From NCBI RefSeq assembly GCF_900095305.1, contig NZ_FMDO01000036.1:1-64000 (forward strand): a stretch of 64,000 nt of DNA, given 5' to 3'. The DNA is from Proteiniborus sp. DW1 (lineage in GTDB: Bacteria; Bacillota; Clostridia; Tissierellales; Proteiniboraceae). Shown piece by piece: positions 11,945 to 18,113 of the stretch; within the stretch, counting starts at the first letter, position 1; the number at the start of each line of letters is the position of its first letter. Below the pieces are notes generated by a model. That model ran no database searches and had not been told where the DNA came from. It was given only the letters and a program-made list of their open reading frames with translations. A program made the translations under genes and the position numbers.

Positions 11945-11956
11945 TTTTTCACCTCA

Positions 11957-11986
11957 AATTATACAAAATATACATTTTGTATAATT
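11957..11986. repeat. Perfect 30-bp inverted repeat upstream of the recombinase
   Basis: AATTATACAAAAT (11957-11969), centre ATAC, ATTTTGTATAATT (11974-11986). It lies between a minus-strand TATAAT (11984-11989) and the ribosome site of the recombinase gene. It can equally be read as 11-bp arms around a 6-bp centre, the geometry of Xer core sites. An autoregulatory operator is the simpler reading. Confidence 0.8.
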
Positions 11987-12341
11987 ATATTCTACATTTT
12001 TTAGAGAAATCCTTCTTAAATTAAGAATAATTTTATTGAATTCTGAGCTTTTATATAATGTTTGCTTTAGAAATATAATTAACAATCATGACTATTATTA
12101 ATAATTTGCTTAAAGTCTATATTTTAAATCTATATTTTTAATGATTTATGGCCAAAATTGCTGCTGAATTATGTTTCTCAATTAAAAATTTCAAGATCCT
12201 ATGATATTAATTTTTTTGAAGCAAATTATCAACAATTAGCGTTTTAAATCGTTTTTAAGCATAATTTTATATGTTATGATATAAAACCATTAGTAAGCAA
12301 AAATAACGTCTTTATTTCTCAAATTTAGAGCCGGTATTTTT

Positions 12342-12377
12342 GTGATTTATAAAAAATGATGATTTTTGATAAATCAC
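12342..12377 (+). terminator. Imperfect 16-bp stem-loop with T-rich tail
   Basis: GTGATTTATAAAAAAT (12342-12357) pairs with ATTTTTGATAAATCAC (12362-12377) with one mismatch and a 4-nt loop. A T-rich stretch follows on the plus strand. No plus-strand gene ends nearby, so its role is unclear. Confidence 0.4.
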
Positions 12378-12487
12378 TTATTATTTTTGTTTTTTCTATA
12401 AAATAATATGAATACTTTTTTATAAAATGACTTTACTTGTTTATATAATACTATGCTATAAAAGCCTTGTATATTTTAAAACACTTA

Positions 12488-12524
12488 CATAAAGTTAACA
12501 TAATATAATTATGTTAACTTTATG
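12488..12524. repeat. Perfect 37-bp palindrome
   Basis: Two 17-bp arms, CATAAAGTTAACATAAT (12488-12504) and its exact complement (12508-12524), flank the centre ATA. There is no T tract, so it does not look like a terminator. It stands alone in the gene-free region. Confidence 0.8.
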
Positions 12525-12598
12525 ATTATAGATAACCTAATAATTAAAGAAAATTCATACATAATAATTTATTTAAATGATAAAAATAATCAAAAAAT

Positions 12599-12630
12599 AA
12601 ATACTACACACAAAACTGTATGTAGTATTT
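12599..12630 (-). terminator. Terminator of the redox operon
   Basis: AAATACTACA (12599-12608) pairs with TGTAGTATTT (12621-12630), with a further ACA/TGT inner stem. On the minus strand the right-hand arm is followed by a T-rich tail. It lies about 125 nt past the last gene of the operon. Confidence 0.7.
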
Positions 12631-12643
12631 TAATATCACTATT

Positions 12644-12754
12644 TTACTCCCCTGCTAATAAATGAATAACTTGAACTTCATCATCATAATTTCAGCGACT
12701 TTTAAAAATGCTTTCCTTGAATTCTTTTCTCAAAATATGTTTGTGAGTTCTGTA
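12644..12754 (-). pseudogene. Possible coding remnant after the dehydrogenase gene
   Basis: Directly after the stop at 12755, the same frame continues for 36 codons with one further internal TGA and closes with a sensible protein-like end (DDEVQVIHLLAGE then TAA). There is no start codon with a ribosome site. It could be a decayed small gene or chance; I do not recognise the family. Confidence 0.25.
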
Positions 12755-13903
12755 TCATACTACTGAAGGTTCAAATACTAACTCGCCTTTTTCAAATCTT
12801 TCAAGAGTAAGTCTACTAATATCAATGGTATTTTTTTCACCTAGTATTTGCTCAGTTATAAGTAATCCTGACATTGGCCCTAGCATAAAACCATGACCAC
12901 TAAATCCAATAGCCAAATAGAATCCTTCTACACCCTTTACAGGACCATAAATAGGATGTTTATCAGGAGTCATATTATATAGACCGGCCCATTGTCTTAT
13001 AACTCTTAATTCTCCAACAGGAGGAAGCAATTCTACAACTGTCTTAGCCATTTCATCTAAGAAATGCCAGCTTGATGTTACTCTTAAGTCTCTAGGTTCA
13101 CTATCATCACCTCTACCCATAATAAAAGAACCATGGGGAGTCTGCTGACAGTATATATTTAATGAAAATGACATAACCATAGGGTCTTGCATTGGTTCTA
13201 CAGGCTCAGTTACTAATATCTGATGCCTTTCTGAATATACAGGAATGTCTACACCTACCATATCTGCTATTAGCTTAGAATATCCGCCAGCAGCATTAAC
13301 TACTATATTAGTAGATATCTCTCCTTTATTAGTAATAACTCCCTTAATTTTTCCATTTTCAACTTTTATTCCTAATACCTCTGTAAATGTATATATTTTA
13401 ACTCCTAATTTCTTAGCTGCTTTTGCATATGCATCCGTAGTTAAAAATGGGTTTAAATGTCCGTCCTTTGGGCAAAAAGTAGCACTTCTAATAATATTTG
13501 TATTTAAATAAGGCACTATTTCTTTTGCTTCCTGTGGTGTAATGTATTCTACAGGTATACCTAAGGATTTTTGTAATTCTACATTCTTTTTAAACTGTGC
13601 ATCTTCTTTTTCGGTAGTAGAAACTAATAAATATCCTCCTTGATGAAATTCAATATCTCCATCATATTCTAGCTCTTCATTTGCTGTTTCAAAGAATTTA
13701 ATACTCTCCATTGCCAATCTGCAATTCATTTCAGTACCCCATTGTTGTCTAACACCTGCTCCACATCTGCCTGTTGCACCACTTGCAAGAAACTTTTTTT
13801 CTAGTACAACAACATCTCTTATACCTTTTTTTGCTAGATTATAAGCTATAGAACAACCTGTTACTCCACCACCAATAATTATAACATCAGCTGTTTTAAT
13901 CAT
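12755..13903 (-). CDS. FAD-dependent amino-acid dehydrogenase subunit (DAO family, PdhB/LhpB-like)
   Basis: Catalytic flavoprotein of the D-amino-acid-oxidase fold, 382 residues, with N-terminal dinucleotide motif IIGGGVTGCSIAYNLAKKG and the family motif RCGAGVRQQWGTE. It resembles the beta subunit of archaeal dye-linked L-proline dehydrogenase (PDH1), D-hydroxyproline dehydrogenase LhpB and sarcosine-oxidase-like proteins. The substrate is therefore probably an imino or N-alkyl amino acid; proline or hydroxyproline is an inference. The frame extends to 13918, but GGAGGTG lies 6 nt before ATG 13903. It overlaps the upstream gene by 8 nt and is the last gene of a five-gene operon. Confidence 0.85.
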   Translation of the reverse strand: MIKTADVIIIGGGVTGCSIAYNLAKKGIRDVVVLEKKFLASGATGRCGAGVRQQWGTEMNCRLAMESIKFFETANEELEYDGDIEFHQGGYLLVSTTEKEDAQFKKNVELQKSLGIPVEYITPQEAKEIVPYLNTNIIRSATFCPKDGHLNPFLTTDAYAKAAKKLGVKIYTFTEVLGIKVENGKIKGVITNKGEISTNIVVNAAGGYSKLIADMVGVDIPVYSERHQILVTEPVEPMQDPMVMSFSLNIYCQQTPHGSFIMGRGDDSEPRDLRVTSSWHFLDEMAKTVVELLPPVGELRVIRQWAGLYNMTPDKHPIYGPVKGVEGFYLAIGFSGHGFMLGPMSGLLITEQILGEKNTIDISRLTLERFEKGELVFEPSVV

Positions 13904-14174
13904 TAAATTCACCTCCATTTAATATTTGCCTTATTTTGATTCCTGCTACTGGAGGTCTACTTACACAAACATCTAGCTCGGCTATATTAAGACCAGTATA
14001 ATTAGCGATTTCTCTTAATATAAGCTGACTACAGGTTCTTCCTTGACATGGTCCCATTCCAGCTCGAGAAATCCTTTTAATTTCATCTAATGTTGTATAA
14101 CCATCTTGAATTAGCGTTCTGATATCTTCTAAGGTAAGATCTGAACATCTACAAACTATAGTATCATTATTCAT
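13896..14174 (-). CDS. BFD-like [2Fe-2S] protein of the dehydrogenase complex
   Basis: A 92-residue protein with the bacterioferritin-associated-ferredoxin type cluster site: Cys8-x-Cys10 near the N-terminus (IVCRCSD) and a CQGRTC pair about 35 residues later, preceded by the helical segment typical of Fer2_BFD. It corresponds in size to the 10-kDa PdhX-type subunit of the archaeal proline dehydrogenase complex. In related enzymes this domain is fused to the C-terminus of the FAD/NAD(P) subunit; here it is separate. It overlaps both neighbours by 8 nt, implying coupled translation. Confidence 0.85.
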   Translation of the reverse strand: MNNDTIVCRCSDLTLEDIRTLIQDGYTTLDEIKRISRAGMGPCQGRTCSQLILREIANYTGLNIAELDVCVSRPPVAGIKIRQILNGGEFND

Positions 14175-14667
14175 GAGTCATGTCCCCCATTCCTATATTT
14201 CTAAAATCATATAAAAATTGTCTATTGACTGCTACGTCTATTATGGCAGTTTTATCAAAGGATTTTGGATTTAGCACTCTTACTACCCTTACATCAGTTA
14301 TATATTCCCCACTTCTATCTAAACCTTTAACAATGTCCCCCTTATTAGGGAGAGGTAAAAATTCATAAGGAATTCTAATCAATATTTCATTATCTGAATA
14401 ACTACCGTCTACAACCATAATAGCTAATCCTGGACATTTGCTTATACATATACCGCAACCATTGCAATTTTCAACATTTAGTGAGGGCAAATCATTTATA
14501 TCATTCATAGAATTCATTGCATTACATGGACAAGATGTTGAACAAGGATTGCAAGGAATACTCTGAAAGCACTCAACAACAGCTACTGGACCACGATTTA
14601 TCCTATCTAAACTAGGAAATGCTTTTTCTATTAAATCTTTTGTAGGAATTCCTGTGTATTCAATCAT
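14167..14667 (-). CDS. 4Fe-4S ferredoxin-like subunit of the dehydrogenase complex
   Basis: A 166-residue iron-sulfur protein with two cysteine clusters: CNPCSTSCPC near residue 39 and CNGCGICISKCP near residue 69, then a cysteine-free C-terminal half of unknown fold. The size (about 18 kDa) and content match the small ferredoxin subunit of the four-subunit PDH1 complex. It presumably relays electrons between the flavin subunits and an external acceptor. It lies between the FAD subunit gene, to which it abuts directly, and the BFD-like gene, with an 8-nt overlap. Confidence 0.85.
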   Translation of the reverse strand: MIEYTGIPTKDLIEKAFPSLDRINRGPVAVVECFQSIPCNPCSTSCPCNAMNSMNDINDLPSLNVENCNGCGICISKCPGLAIMVVDGSYSDNEILIRIPYEFLPLPNKGDIVKGLDRSGEYITDVRVVRVLNPKSFDKTAIIDVAVNRQFLYDFRNIGMGDMTHE

Positions 14668-15756
14668 TTAGATCACCTCTCTGACAATTTTACTAATTCC
14701 ATTTCTAATCTTTTCTCCTACTATTCCTGAACGTAAGGAGTTTAACTGAGAAATATAATCTTTTCTAAGTTCTGTAAAGTCTTTGTGTTCAAATCCTATA
14801 CTTTTTGCAGCACATAAACCAGCTAAATATCCTTCAACCATGGCACTACTAGCTTCCTCTACTCCTGAAACGTCACCAGCTACATAAATATTTTTTTTGG
14901 TAGTTTGATAATTTTCATCTCTTATTGGAACCAATCCACCTAGTTCAGGAACATACTTCATTTCACACCCAGCCTGCATAATTAGTTCAGTTAATGGAGT
15001 TAGCCCTACAGAAACACACATAACATCTACATCAAATTCTATTTCAGTGCCTTTTATGGAATTCCATTCACTGTCTAATTTACATACAACAGCTTTCTCT
15101 AAGTAATTACCTCCAATTGCTTCTTTTACTGTGTACCTAGTTAGAATTGGAATTCCCACTCTTCTGATTTTAGAGGCGTGTACTAAGTAACCACCAATTT
15201 TTGGCGCTGCATCAATAATGGCTTCTACTTTTACACCTGCTTGCATTAACTGGTAGCTTACTATTAAACCTATATTACCTGCACCAACCATTAAGACTTT
15301 ATTTCCGGGCTTAATGCCATGTACATTCATAAGAGTTTGAACAGCACCTGCTCCATAAATTCCTGGCAAATCATTATTAGGAAAAGCTAATACCTTTTCG
15401 CTAGCACCAGTTGCAACTAGAATTGCCTTAGGATTTACCTTTATATATTTACTATCGTAATCTATAGTAATAACCCCATCTTCATATATTCCCAAAACGG
15501 TAGCATCAGTCATTATTTCAACGTTATTTTTAAACTTCATTAAGTTATCTAACAAAATTTTAGCTATACTAATTCCTCTTGTAGAAGCATACTGCTTTTC
15601 AGAACCAAAAAACATATGAGTCTGCTTTATAAGTTGTCCACCTAGTTCTTTATTTCTATCTATTAACAATACTTTAGTGCCACTTGATGCAGCACTAATA
15701 GCCGCACACAATCCTGCTGGTCCCCCACCTATAACAGCTAAATCAACGTACTTCAT
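14668..15756 (-). CDS. FAD/NAD(P)-dependent oxidoreductase subunit (HcnB/LhpF/PdhA-like)
   Basis: A 362-residue pyridine-nucleotide-disulfide-oxidoreductase-fold flavoprotein with FAD motif GGGPAG (10-15), a second dinucleotide motif GAGNIG in the middle, and the C-terminal FAD motif region YVAGDVSG. It matches the electron-transfer flavin subunit of hydrogen-cyanide-synthase, D-hydroxyproline dehydrogenase and archaeal PDH1 complexes. In many relatives the Fer2 domain is fused N-terminally and the BFD domain C-terminally; here both are separate genes. It overlaps the upstream Fer2 gene by 14 nt. Whether NAD(P) is actually used is not known. Confidence 0.85.
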   Translation of the reverse strand: MKYVDLAVIGGGPAGLCAAISAASSGTKVLLIDRNKELGGQLIKQTHMFFGSEKQYASTRGISIAKILLDNLMKFKNNVEIMTDATVLGIYEDGVITIDYDSKYIKVNPKAILVATGASEKVLAFPNNDLPGIYGAGAVQTLMNVHGIKPGNKVLMVGAGNIGLIVSYQLMQAGVKVEAIIDAAPKIGGYLVHASKIRRVGIPILTRYTVKEAIGGNYLEKAVVCKLDSEWNSIKGTEIEFDVDVMCVSVGLTPLTELIMQAGCEMKYVPELGGLVPIRDENYQTTKKNIYVAGDVSGVEEASSAMVEGYLAGLCAAKSIGFEHKDFTELRKDYISQLNSLRSGIVGEKIRNGISKIVREVI

Positions 15757-16060
15757 AAGTTATAACCCCCTTTCCTTGTTGGGTCTCAACAACCATTCCA
15801 TCTTTTAGTTCAGTTATGCAAGTGCGAATATTCGGCTCACCATTTACTATCATGTTGCATGATGAACAATTACCGATTGCACAATAAAAGCCTCTTGGCC
15901 TTTGCTTAAATATGCTTTTCCCCAGTACTTTTACTCCAGCAGCATGTAGTGCTGCTGCAATGGTTTCTCCTTTATACCCTTCTAACTCTTCGCCATTAAA
16001 AGTGAACTTAATTTTTTCTCCTCTATTAAATTCTAATATTGGATGGTTTTTGATTCTCAT
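15743..16060 (-). CDS. [2Fe-2S] ferredoxin-domain subunit (Fer2_4; HcnA/LhpE-like)
   Basis: First gene of the redox operon: 105 residues with a Fer2_4 plant-type ferredoxin domain, as in the N-terminus of sarcosine oxidase alpha. The cluster cysteines are in CAIGNCSSC with the fourth in IRTC. It has a strong AAGGAGG ribosome site 7 nt before the ATG. Transcription is predicted from the sigma-54 promoter 57-72 nt upstream. Together with the next gene it corresponds to a split form of the PdhA alpha subunit. Confidence 0.88.
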   Translation of the reverse strand: MRIKNHPILEFNRGEKIKFTFNGEELEGYKGETIAAALHAAGVKVLGKSIFKQRPRGFYCAIGNCSSCNMIVNGEPNIRTCITELKDGMVVETQQGKGVITYEVR

Positions 16061-16116: not shown

Positions 16117-16132
16117 AGCAAAAAATATACCA
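16117..16132 (-). promoter_or_regulatory. Sigma-54 (-24/-12) promoter of the redox operon
   Basis: On the minus strand, TGGTATA-TTTT-TTGCT matches the TGGYAYR-N4-TTGCW consensus at every position, with the required 10 bases between GG and GC. The predicted start is about 45 nt before the first ATG. A sigma-54 activator gene and three dyads lie directly upstream, which makes chance unlikely. Confidence 0.9.
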
Positions 16133-16189: not shown

Positions 16190-16205
16190 AGTCAGAAAAT
16201 TGACA
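16190..16205. promoter_or_regulatory. Activator-site dyad 1 (GTCA-N6-TGAC)
   Basis: AGTCAGAAAATTGACA is one of three similar 16-bp dyads between the activator gene and the sigma-54 promoter. It is centred about 65 bp upstream of the -24 element, a usual enhancer distance. Confidence 0.7.
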
Positions 16206-16300
16206 ACATTTATAAAATTCAAAATTTAACTATTAGTTTAATTTAAGACTATATAATTGTTTTCAAAAAAATAAAATAAAAAACACAAGCAAAAAAATAA

Positions 16301-16316
16301 TGTCAAATACTTGACA
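16301..16316. promoter_or_regulatory. Activator-site dyad 2 (GTCA-N6-TGAC)
   Basis: TGTCAAATACTTGACA has perfect TGTCAA/TTGACA arms. It is centred 19 bp from dyad 3, close to two helical turns, suggesting cooperative binding of activator dimers. Confidence 0.78.
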
Positions 16317-16319
16317 CAA

Positions 16320-16335
16320 AGTCAGATATTTGACA
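16320..16335. promoter_or_regulatory. Activator-site dyad 3 (GTCA-N6-TGAC)
   Basis: AGTCAGATATTTGACA is the third member of the dyad set and lies just beyond the stop codon of the activator gene. Confidence 0.75.
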
Positions 16336-16340
16336 TCTCT

Positions 16341-18113
16341 TTACAATTCAATGTTGTACTTATTCATTTTAAAGTATAAAGTGCTTCTGGGTATATTTAA
16401 AATTTCTGCTGCCTTTCTTTTGTTATTGTTAGTAATCTTTAATGCCTTGAGTATCAATTCTTTCTCTTTATTGTTTACTACTTCACTTAAGTCAATATTA
16501 TCTTTTGCTTGTATCATAGAACTCACTTGATAATTCTTTATGATATCATTAGGTAAATAGCTAATATCAAACTTATTATGCTTTGATAAAATTACTATTC
16601 TCTCAATTAGATTCCTAAGTTCTCGTATATTTCCTTCCCAATGATGATTTAACAGTATATTCATCACATCTGGAGGAATTTCTATAATATTAGTACCATA
16701 AGATATACAAAAATCTTTAATAAATTTATTTACCAATAGTGGTATATCTTCTCTTCTCTCTCTTAGAGGAGGAAGTTCTATTAGAACAGAATTTAGTCTA
16801 TAATATAGGTCTTTTCTAAACAAACCCTTATCCATTAGTTTAAGTAAATTTTTATTTGTTGCTGCAATAATTCTTACATCTATTTTAGTAAAATTTTCAC
16901 TACCAATACGTGTTATAATACCATCTTCAATTACTCTTAGAATTTTAGGTTGCATATTTAATGGCATGTCCCCAATCTCATCGAGGAAAATTGTACCATT
17001 ATGAGCTAATTCAAATTTGCCTGCTCTTCCTTCTCTAGAAGAACCTGTAAAGGCACCGCCTTTATATCCAAACAACTCACTTTCCATTAATTCATTAGGT
17101 ATAGCACTACAGTTAATAGGAACAAAATATCCTTTTCTACCACTTTCTATATGTATGGCTCGTGCAAATACCTCTTTTCCAGTTCCACTTTCACCTGTTA
17201 TCAATACATTAATAGTAGATTTTGATATATTTTTGCTAAATTCTATAATCTCATTAAATTTATTATTATTACTTACTATTTGTGAAAATGGAAATCTACT
17301 TTCATTTAAACTTGAAACCTCGCTTTCAAGAACTTGGAGGTTTGCTTGTGTTTTACTAAGCAAGCCTGCCATCCTTATTAACTCAGATATATCTTTGTCG
17401 CAGCTTACACCACCTATGATTTGATCATTATCCATCAATGGTTTAGCACTAATAATATTATAGCATCCTTTTCTAGGACTATTAAAAATATTCTCATAAG
17501 AATTACCTTCTGCTACTACTTTTGGTAACAACGCACTAGGAAAAATCTCTTGTATCTTTTTACAATAGATTTCTTCTCTGCTTATTTTGTACAATTTTTC
17601 AGCACTTTTGTTCCATATCAAAACATTTGCTTCTTTATCAACTACACATATAGCATCATGAATATTATCTAAGATTTTGCTAAATAAGTCATTTACTTTA
17701 AATAATAAATTATTGAAAAAAATTGCTACATTATTAGGACTAATTACTCCCTTAATCCTACCTTCGCTGTATACAGGTATAGATTTATCGTAACCTTCTT
17801 TGACCAATTTCATTATCTCATTTACTGAATCCTCAATGTCTATACCCCTATGATAAGTTGCTGTATTTTTATCTATATATTCTTCTAAAGTAATACCTTC
17901 ACTTATTATATTTACCAGGTCTTCTATAGTCAGAAGTAAATCTCTAATATGTTTTCTATTACTGTTGTCGATAACTATAACTGCATTTTGTTTATTTTTT
18001 TTCATTAACTTAAGCACATTGAAAAGATTATGAACTTTACATACTTTTATTATACTATTATTCATAATATGTTTTGCTTTTATATTATTTACAATTGTAC
18101 TAATAAGCTCCAT
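16341..18113 (-). CDS. Sigma-54-dependent transcriptional activator with CBS and PAS domains (PrdR-like)
   Basis: Enhancer-binding protein of 590 residues. The N-terminal 135 residues look like a CBS-domain pair, followed by a PAS domain (about 142-250). The AAA+ domain has Walker A GESGTGKE (307-314), the sigma-54-contacting loop GAFTGS (353-358) and Walker B in GTIFLDEIGD (373-382). A Fis-type helix-turn-helix occupies the C-terminus (KRKAAEILNIPRSTLY). The CBS-PAS-AAA+ layout is that of PrdR, the proline-responsive activator of Clostridioides difficile. With three dyads and a sigma-54 promoter right downstream, it very likely controls the redox operon; the ligand is unknown. Confidence 0.92.
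   Translation of the reverse strand: MELISTIVNNIKAKHIMNNSIIKVCKVHNLFNVLKLMKKNKQNAVIVIDNSNRKHIRDLLLTIEDLVNIISEGITLEEYIDKNTATYHRGIDIEDSVNEIMKLVKEGYDKSIPVYSEGRIKGVISPNNVAIFFNNLLFKVNDLFSKILDNIHDAICVVDKEANVLIWNKSAEKLYKISREEIYCKKIQEIFPSALLPKVVAEGNSYENIFNSPRKGCYNIISAKPLMDNDQIIGGVSCDKDISELIRMAGLLSKTQANLQVLESEVSSLNESRFPFSQIVSNNNKFNEIIEFSKNISKSTINVLITGESGTGKEVFARAIHIESGRKGYFVPINCSAIPNELMESELFGYKGGAFTGSSREGRAGKFELAHNGTIFLDEIGDMPLNMQPKILRVIEDGIITRIGSENFTKIDVRIIAATNKNLLKLMDKGLFRKDLYYRLNSVLIELPPLRERREDIPLLVNKFIKDFCISYGTNIIEIPPDVMNILLNHHWEGNIRELRNLIERIVILSKHNKFDISYLPNDIIKNYQVSSMIQAKDNIDLSEVVNNKEKELILKALKITNNNKRKAAEILNIPRSTLYFKMNKYNIEL

Follow-up and report, generated by a model that had tools for sequence, protein, structure and literature searches.

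The window, that is the whole 64-kb stretch of DNA analysed here, contains a PrdR-like sigma-54 activator gene (EBP) that is separated by a 281-bp gap from a five-gene flavoprotein operon read in the same direction. All three of the dyads with which we are concerned lie in this one gap, between the stop codon of the activator and the first operon gene. The features are as follows.

16341..18113, minus strand: sigma-54 activator (EBP), PrdR-like, with CBS, PAS, AAA+ (GAFTGS loop) and Fis-type HTH domains
16356..16466, minus strand: Fis-family HTH of the activator, residues 550-586, recognition helix IPRSTLYFK
16320..16335, no strand: distal dyad 2 of the tandem pair, AGTCAGATATTTGACA, 19 bp centre-to-centre from its partner
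16301..16316, no strand: distal dyad 1 of the tandem pair, TGTCAAATACTTGACA
16299..16337, minus strand (sense of the EBP gene): predicted hairpin of the two tandem dyads (-17.5 kcal/mol) with a T-rich run behind it at 16298-16291, a candidate terminator for the EBP gene
16190..16205, no strand: promoter-proximal dyad, AGTCAGAAAATTGACA on the plus strand and TGTCAATTTTCTGACT in the operon sense
16117..16132, minus strand: sigma-54-type -24/-12 element, TGGTATATTTTTTGCT, similarly positioned in relatives
15743..16060, minus strand: operon gene 1, 2Fe-2S protein (Fer2_4)
14668..15756, minus strand: operon gene 2, FAD/NAD-linked oxidoreductase (Pyr_redox_2) resembling sarcosine oxidase alpha and 1y56 chain A
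14167..14667, minus strand: operon gene 3, Fer4 protein
13896..14174, minus strand: operon gene 4, BFD-like 2Fe-2S protein
12755..13918, minus strand: operon gene 5, DAO-family flavoprotein with 1y56_B as its nearest solved chain (E 5.5e-88)

The preliminary description of this DNA reported three dyads of the form GTCA-N6-TGAC, and all three are exact and correctly placed; the tandem pair is centred at 16308.5 and 16327.5, i.e. 19 bp apart, and the remaining dyad at 16197.5, 111 bp nearer the promoter. The distance of 60-205 bp that it gave is right if counted from the GG of the -24 element (16130-16131), but not from the predicted transcription start (∼16106, as inferred from the -24/-12 element at 16132-16117), relative to which the dyad centres lie at about -92, -203 and -222. 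Multiple dyads of the TGT-N10-12-ACA type precede a sigma-54 element, as is characteristic of PrdR-type upstream activator sequences, with TGT-N10-ACA matched literally by the middle dyad only and the other two ending in ACT in one orientation. No other exact GTCA-N6-TGAC occurs in the 64-kb window, and 0 of 20 000 dinucleotide shuffles of the gap (extended by 20 bases into the EBP gene) yielded three. If one mismatch is allowed, dyads are no commoner than expected by chance, whether in the window (14, with 11.2 expected) or in the whole genome (151 forward and 138 reverse; reversed pattern, 145 and 173), so that a single degenerate match carries no meaning.

The EBP has the domain architecture of PrdR, with CBS, PAS, AAA+ and Fis-HTH all found, and its GAFTGS loop, a variant of the GAFTGA type, marks it as a sigma-54 activator. 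Its assignment to a PrdR-like class, proposed earlier, holds as far as likeness is concerned, but it is not PrdR itself: the best NCBIfam model is PrdR (NF041552), but the score of 649.6 bits falls short of the cut-off of 795, and in the tree it sits in a 29-row clade (SH-aLRT 100) that is separate from, and devoid of, any prd-linked EBP. The EBPs of the other operon loci fall within the same clade. PrdA exceeds the cut-off in none of the three genomes of the genus, and the neighbour of the regulator is a flavoprotein dehydrogenase operon in place of prd genes.

The function of this operon is most likely that of an L-proline dehydrogenase complex, the substrate being suggested by a sequence match and by gene neighbours. 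The match is to 1y56_B, which we take to be the beta chain of Pyrococcus L-proline dehydrogenase; its label in the PDB is sarcosine oxidase. Genes adjoining the activator or the operon in relatives encode PutP sodium/proline symporters (over the cut-off at L143 and just under it at L142), Xaa-Pro aminopeptidases, and a pair consisting of Fer4 and aldehyde:ferredoxin oxidoreductase (AOR) proteins. Together with the 1y56_B match, these neighbours make proline oxidation likely. Proline is unmentioned in the tungsten-oxidoreductase classification paper (PMC13328260). In most relatives the Fer4 and AOR genes follow the DAO gene; they are absent here, where positions 11945-12754 form ∼800 bp without a long open reading frame ahead of a XerD-like gene, and identity to the genome's best AOR is just 32%.

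The rpoN gene, encoding sigma-54, scores over the cut-off in the genome. Exact TGTCAN6TGACW occurs at 10 distinct places in the 3.12 Mb, 3 of them in the gap described above, and none of the other seven has a suitably placed sigma-54-like site. As one-mismatch dyads are in addition at chance, no further regulon target is claimed. The expectation that a defined recognition sequence would open up the whole regulon is therefore disappointed in this genome, which holds no large regulon of this kind; nor did the recognition sequence await definition, TGT-N10-12-ACA having already been given for PrdR (PMC6615313).

We fetched 60 regions around related activator genes, mostly chosen by match score and architecture rather than at random. 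Among the first 20 EBP regions, 10 have the operon next to the activator gene, and most of these 10 share a common plan in which a dyad pair lies near the EBP stop codon, often with a third dyad nearer the promoter, upstream of a sigma-54 element. The earlier reading of the dyads had been made to depend on their conservation upstream of orthologous operons, and such conservation is what we observe: dyads with at most one mismatch are present in 13 of the 15 EBP-operon loci (mean in dinucleotide shuffles 0.65), in 19 of 30 prd loci (1.32) and in two of three PutP-first loci (0.09), as against 1 of 14 EBP loci lacking both operons (1.66). The prd set includes L201, which like L202 was chosen because a tandem pair was already known there; without it the count is 18 of 29, and L202 enters none of these counts. 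It also retains L197, a duplicate of L194 that was dropped from the pair, hairpin and helix counts. Such dyads are absent from the operon loci G090a and G065, from 11 of the 30 prd loci and from operon copy L219. The intergenic DNA around the conserved dyads differs between loci. The promoter-proximal dyad has an identical core in G001 and G002, and in five cases (the window, G001, G002, G018 and G031) the distance from its start to the -24 element downstream is 73-75 bp. In prd and operon loci alike, the dyads lie upstream of sigma-54 elements.

Two exact tandem dyads were found in 9 of 249 genomes of the order, compared with 2 for the reversed-pattern control. Seven of the nine matches lie at the 3′ end of a PrdR-like EBP gene or within ∼160 bp after it, whereas that in G069 is upstream of an operon copy without an adjoining EBP. 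As a test of the prediction that follows for such copies, we searched for the operon in 20 genomes, most of them with EBPs of the window clade elsewhere, and found it in 17. In 16 of these 17 best copies without an adjoining EBP, dyads precede the first gene, and in 15 of the copies two dyads stand in tandem at exactly the window's spacing of 19 bp (letter shuffles, 1.62 of 17). No EBP gene is present in the scanned upstream DNA of any of the 17, this being only ∼0.35 kb for L218, L228 and L231. The pair therefore tracks the operon and not merely the end of an EBP gene. The second, more distant operon copies in G094 (L234) and G134 (L235), which were left out of the 17, have no dyads. In the ninth genome, G090, three identical 31-bp copies of the tandem dyads stand on different contigs (L170, L176 and L177) and are perhaps part of a repeat element.

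The half-site itself varies with the recognition helix of the EBP. When every one of the 256 possible four-base half-sites was counted at each of the 13 spacings from 0 to 12, without a preset motif, GTCA-N6 came out on top among the 35 loci (prd, operon or PutP) with a helix other than PRTTLHSK, having 39 exact sites in 22 of them; this set leaves out the 12 remaining EBP loci, which have neither prd nor the operon. Exact GTCA-N6 occurs in 0 of the 14 loci with a PRTTLHSK EBP, where GACT-N6 leads (9 of 14; counted also as the shift ACTA-N4), and exact GACT-N6 in turn occurs in 0 of the 35. Fisher tests of helix versus half-site give 5e-5 and 1e-6, although these counts are not independent events because the helix changed once on the tree. 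Within true PrdR, one helix change, to PRTTLHSK, is thus accompanied by a switch from GTCA-N6-TGAC to GACT-N6-AGTC; this is new, and the switch explains most of the 11 prd loci that lack the dyad. Individual loci in which a PRTTLHSK PrdR is found with GACT-N6-AGTC in place of GTCA-N6-TGAC are L193, L178, L179, L182, L186, L195, L196, L198, L215, L189 and L191, the last two having prdC further downstream and exact GACT dyads there. A class-level search gave no new PRTTLHSK locus among those with a readable helix, the helix not being found in 5 of 20. The two combinations, PR[SA]TL[YH][YF]K with GTCA and PRTTLHSK with GACT, provide a natural helix-to-half-site pair for the study of DNA reading by Fis-type activators.

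Next to activator genes, the tandem pair has a further property in that its two dyads are often mutual reverse complements, spacers and flanks included. Across 20 EBP-adjacent pairs, 4.25 of the 6 spacer bases are complementary, compared with 2.89 for permuted partners (0/20 000), as are 4.1 of the six flanking bases (2.94 permuted), whereas for pairs without an adjoining EBP the spacer value is 2.13 of 6 and not above permuted. The six GACT pairs taken alone show no significant complementarity (2246/20 000). Alignment of 17 of the 20 pairs shows pairing in 87.1% of the cells, compared with 72.5% after shuffling, and changes on both sides in 54 cells, for which shuffling gives 20.6; covariation scores 0.441, versus 0.180 when shuffled (0/500) and at most 0.165 when slid. 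The omission of G023, G142 and G104, whose second dyad has two mismatches and whose pair forms no long hairpin, favours this result. Downstream of the 12 pairs in which 4 or more of the 6 positions match, there are 7.2 T per 10 bases, compared with 4.7 after pairs without an adjoining EBP. A dyad overlaps a terminator-like hairpin in 19 of the 26 loci that have both (7.1 expected), the best hairpin lying away from one-mismatch dyads in G054, G045, G034, G021, G019, G057b and G031c. As the antisense strand gives a similar overlap, 13 of 20 with 5.4 expected, it is not strand-specific. In the prd loci G023 and G142, a long terminator-like stem has a dyad at its tip. These trends indicate that the tandem pair beside an activator gene often doubles as a predicted terminator-like hairpin, unlike pairs without an adjoining activator, which is a new observation; the simplest reading is that the EBP-adjacent enhancer may also serve as terminator of the activator gene. 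For the window pair itself, a terminator role is only moderately supported: its predicted hairpin, at -18.5 kcal/mol in the comparison with dyad-preserving shuffles (-13.4 ± 2.4), is just 2.2 sd lower than these, and a consensus terminator scan listed nothing at the pair.

Taken together, the dyads very probably serve the adjoining PrdR-like sigma-54 activator as upstream activator sequences, and the distal pair probably also terminates the gene of that activator. The proposal that they are activator sites, already made in the preliminary description, gains support from their conservation in operon loci, in prd loci and in operon copies without an EBP. Two activator dimers would bind the tandem pair, whose spacing of 19 bp corresponds to about two helical turns, and one dimer the proximal dyad; the activator, presumably under the control of a ligand, would then oligomerise with looping of the AT-rich DNA in between, and its AAA+ ATPase would open RNA polymerase-sigma-54 at 16132-16117, by which the five-gene flavoprotein operon would be switched on. 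In the transcript of the activator gene, the distal dyads and their spacers may pair into an RNA hairpin ahead of the T-run, probably terminating that gene, a role assigned to the hairpin because it stands directly after the gene. One DNA stretch would thus be both enhancer and terminator.

Were the tandem pair solely an intrinsic terminator of the activator gene, its dyad symmetry would be a by-product of the RNA hairpin and no protein would be bound. The hairpin and T-run in most EBP-adjacent pairs and their strong covariation agree with this, yet 15 operon copies whose scanned upstream DNA has no EBP are preceded by 19-bp pairs with non-complementary spacers, the proximal dyad of the window is no terminator and has a conserved core nonetheless, and the half-site letters track the recognition helix; we consider this explanation extremely unlikely. 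An origin by chance in AT-rich DNA, for which the chance-level number of single one-mismatch dyads in window and genome might be cited, is of negligible probability: no shuffle yields three exact dyads, and their retention in loci with differing intergenic surroundings already refutes it.

Slightly more might be said for another regulator acting on the operon through these sites, such as a GlnR/TnrA- or MarR-like protein, as TGTCA-N6-TGACA resembles other palindromes, including the TnrA palindrome TGTNA-N7-TNACA. The spacing here is, however, N6 and not N7, the motif changes with the EBP recognition helix inside one family, and the dyads lie upstream of sigma-54 elements in prd and operon loci alike, so that this alternative is very unlikely. 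The enhancers of the PrdR class could be two-layered, the tandem enhancer being the terminator of its own activator under joint selection as DNA (half-site) and RNA (hairpin); a bound activator could then roadblock or alter termination and couple occupancy to dosage or to operon read-through, a suggestion that we regard as speculative. The element is in any case short, and its apparently superposed enhancer and terminator functions should be separable by mutation.

A reconstruction covering 39 EBP groups of Clostridiales (Nie et al. 2019; PMC6615313) predicted a TGT-N10-12-ACA motif for PrdR and 14 other groups, so that the dyad class as such is already known; in 32 of the groups several sites were reported, which mostly lie 100-250 bp ahead of the promoter. 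In Clostridioides difficile and its relatives, PrdR is the sigma-54 activator of the proline reductase genes, and its control of prd genes or its effects in C. difficile are the subject of PMC7438776 and PMC12285225. The window EBP shares with it the CBS-PAS-AAA+-Fis architecture, the GTCA-N6-TGAC sites found in prd loci of this order, the multiple sites upstream of a sigma-54 promoter and the position of the regulator next to its target. It differs in that the target is a proline-dehydrogenase-like operon rather than prd, and in the hairpin use of the pair, which is unmentioned in the accessible portion of PMC6615313. New is the placement of the regulator in a clade that is sister to PrdR, beside a proline-dehydrogenase-like operon missing from the published regulon table (Table 1 of PMC6615313 contains no proline-dehydrogenase operon). 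In the open-licence literature, titles and abstracts revealed no proline-dehydrogenase regulon of a PrdR-like activator, no overlap of enhancer site and terminator, and no helix-linked motif switch. A target operon and sites are now assigned to this uncharacterised sister clade, and probable proline oxidation would, like proline reduction, come under one activator class.

Sigma-54 control of sarcosine oxidase by SoxR in Bacillus thuringiensis (PMC4941409) also involves an activator that adjoins sarcosine-oxidase-like flavoprotein genes, as here, but the SoxR site is described there as an AT-rich 11-bp inverted repeat with a 7-bp spacer and not GTCA-N6-TGAC; because of this difference, SoxR was set aside as a model. 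Among enzymes, the closest counterpart is the heterotetrameric dye-linked L-proline dehydrogenase of Pyrococcus/Thermococcus (1y56), whose DAO-type catalytic chain is the best match and whose Pyr_redox chain matches as well, the difference being that the window has five separate genes and an activity that is predicted only. At L143 and L144, two PrdR-like activators stand in tandem, of which one precedes PutP and the other the operon, and each is then followed by dyads of its own.
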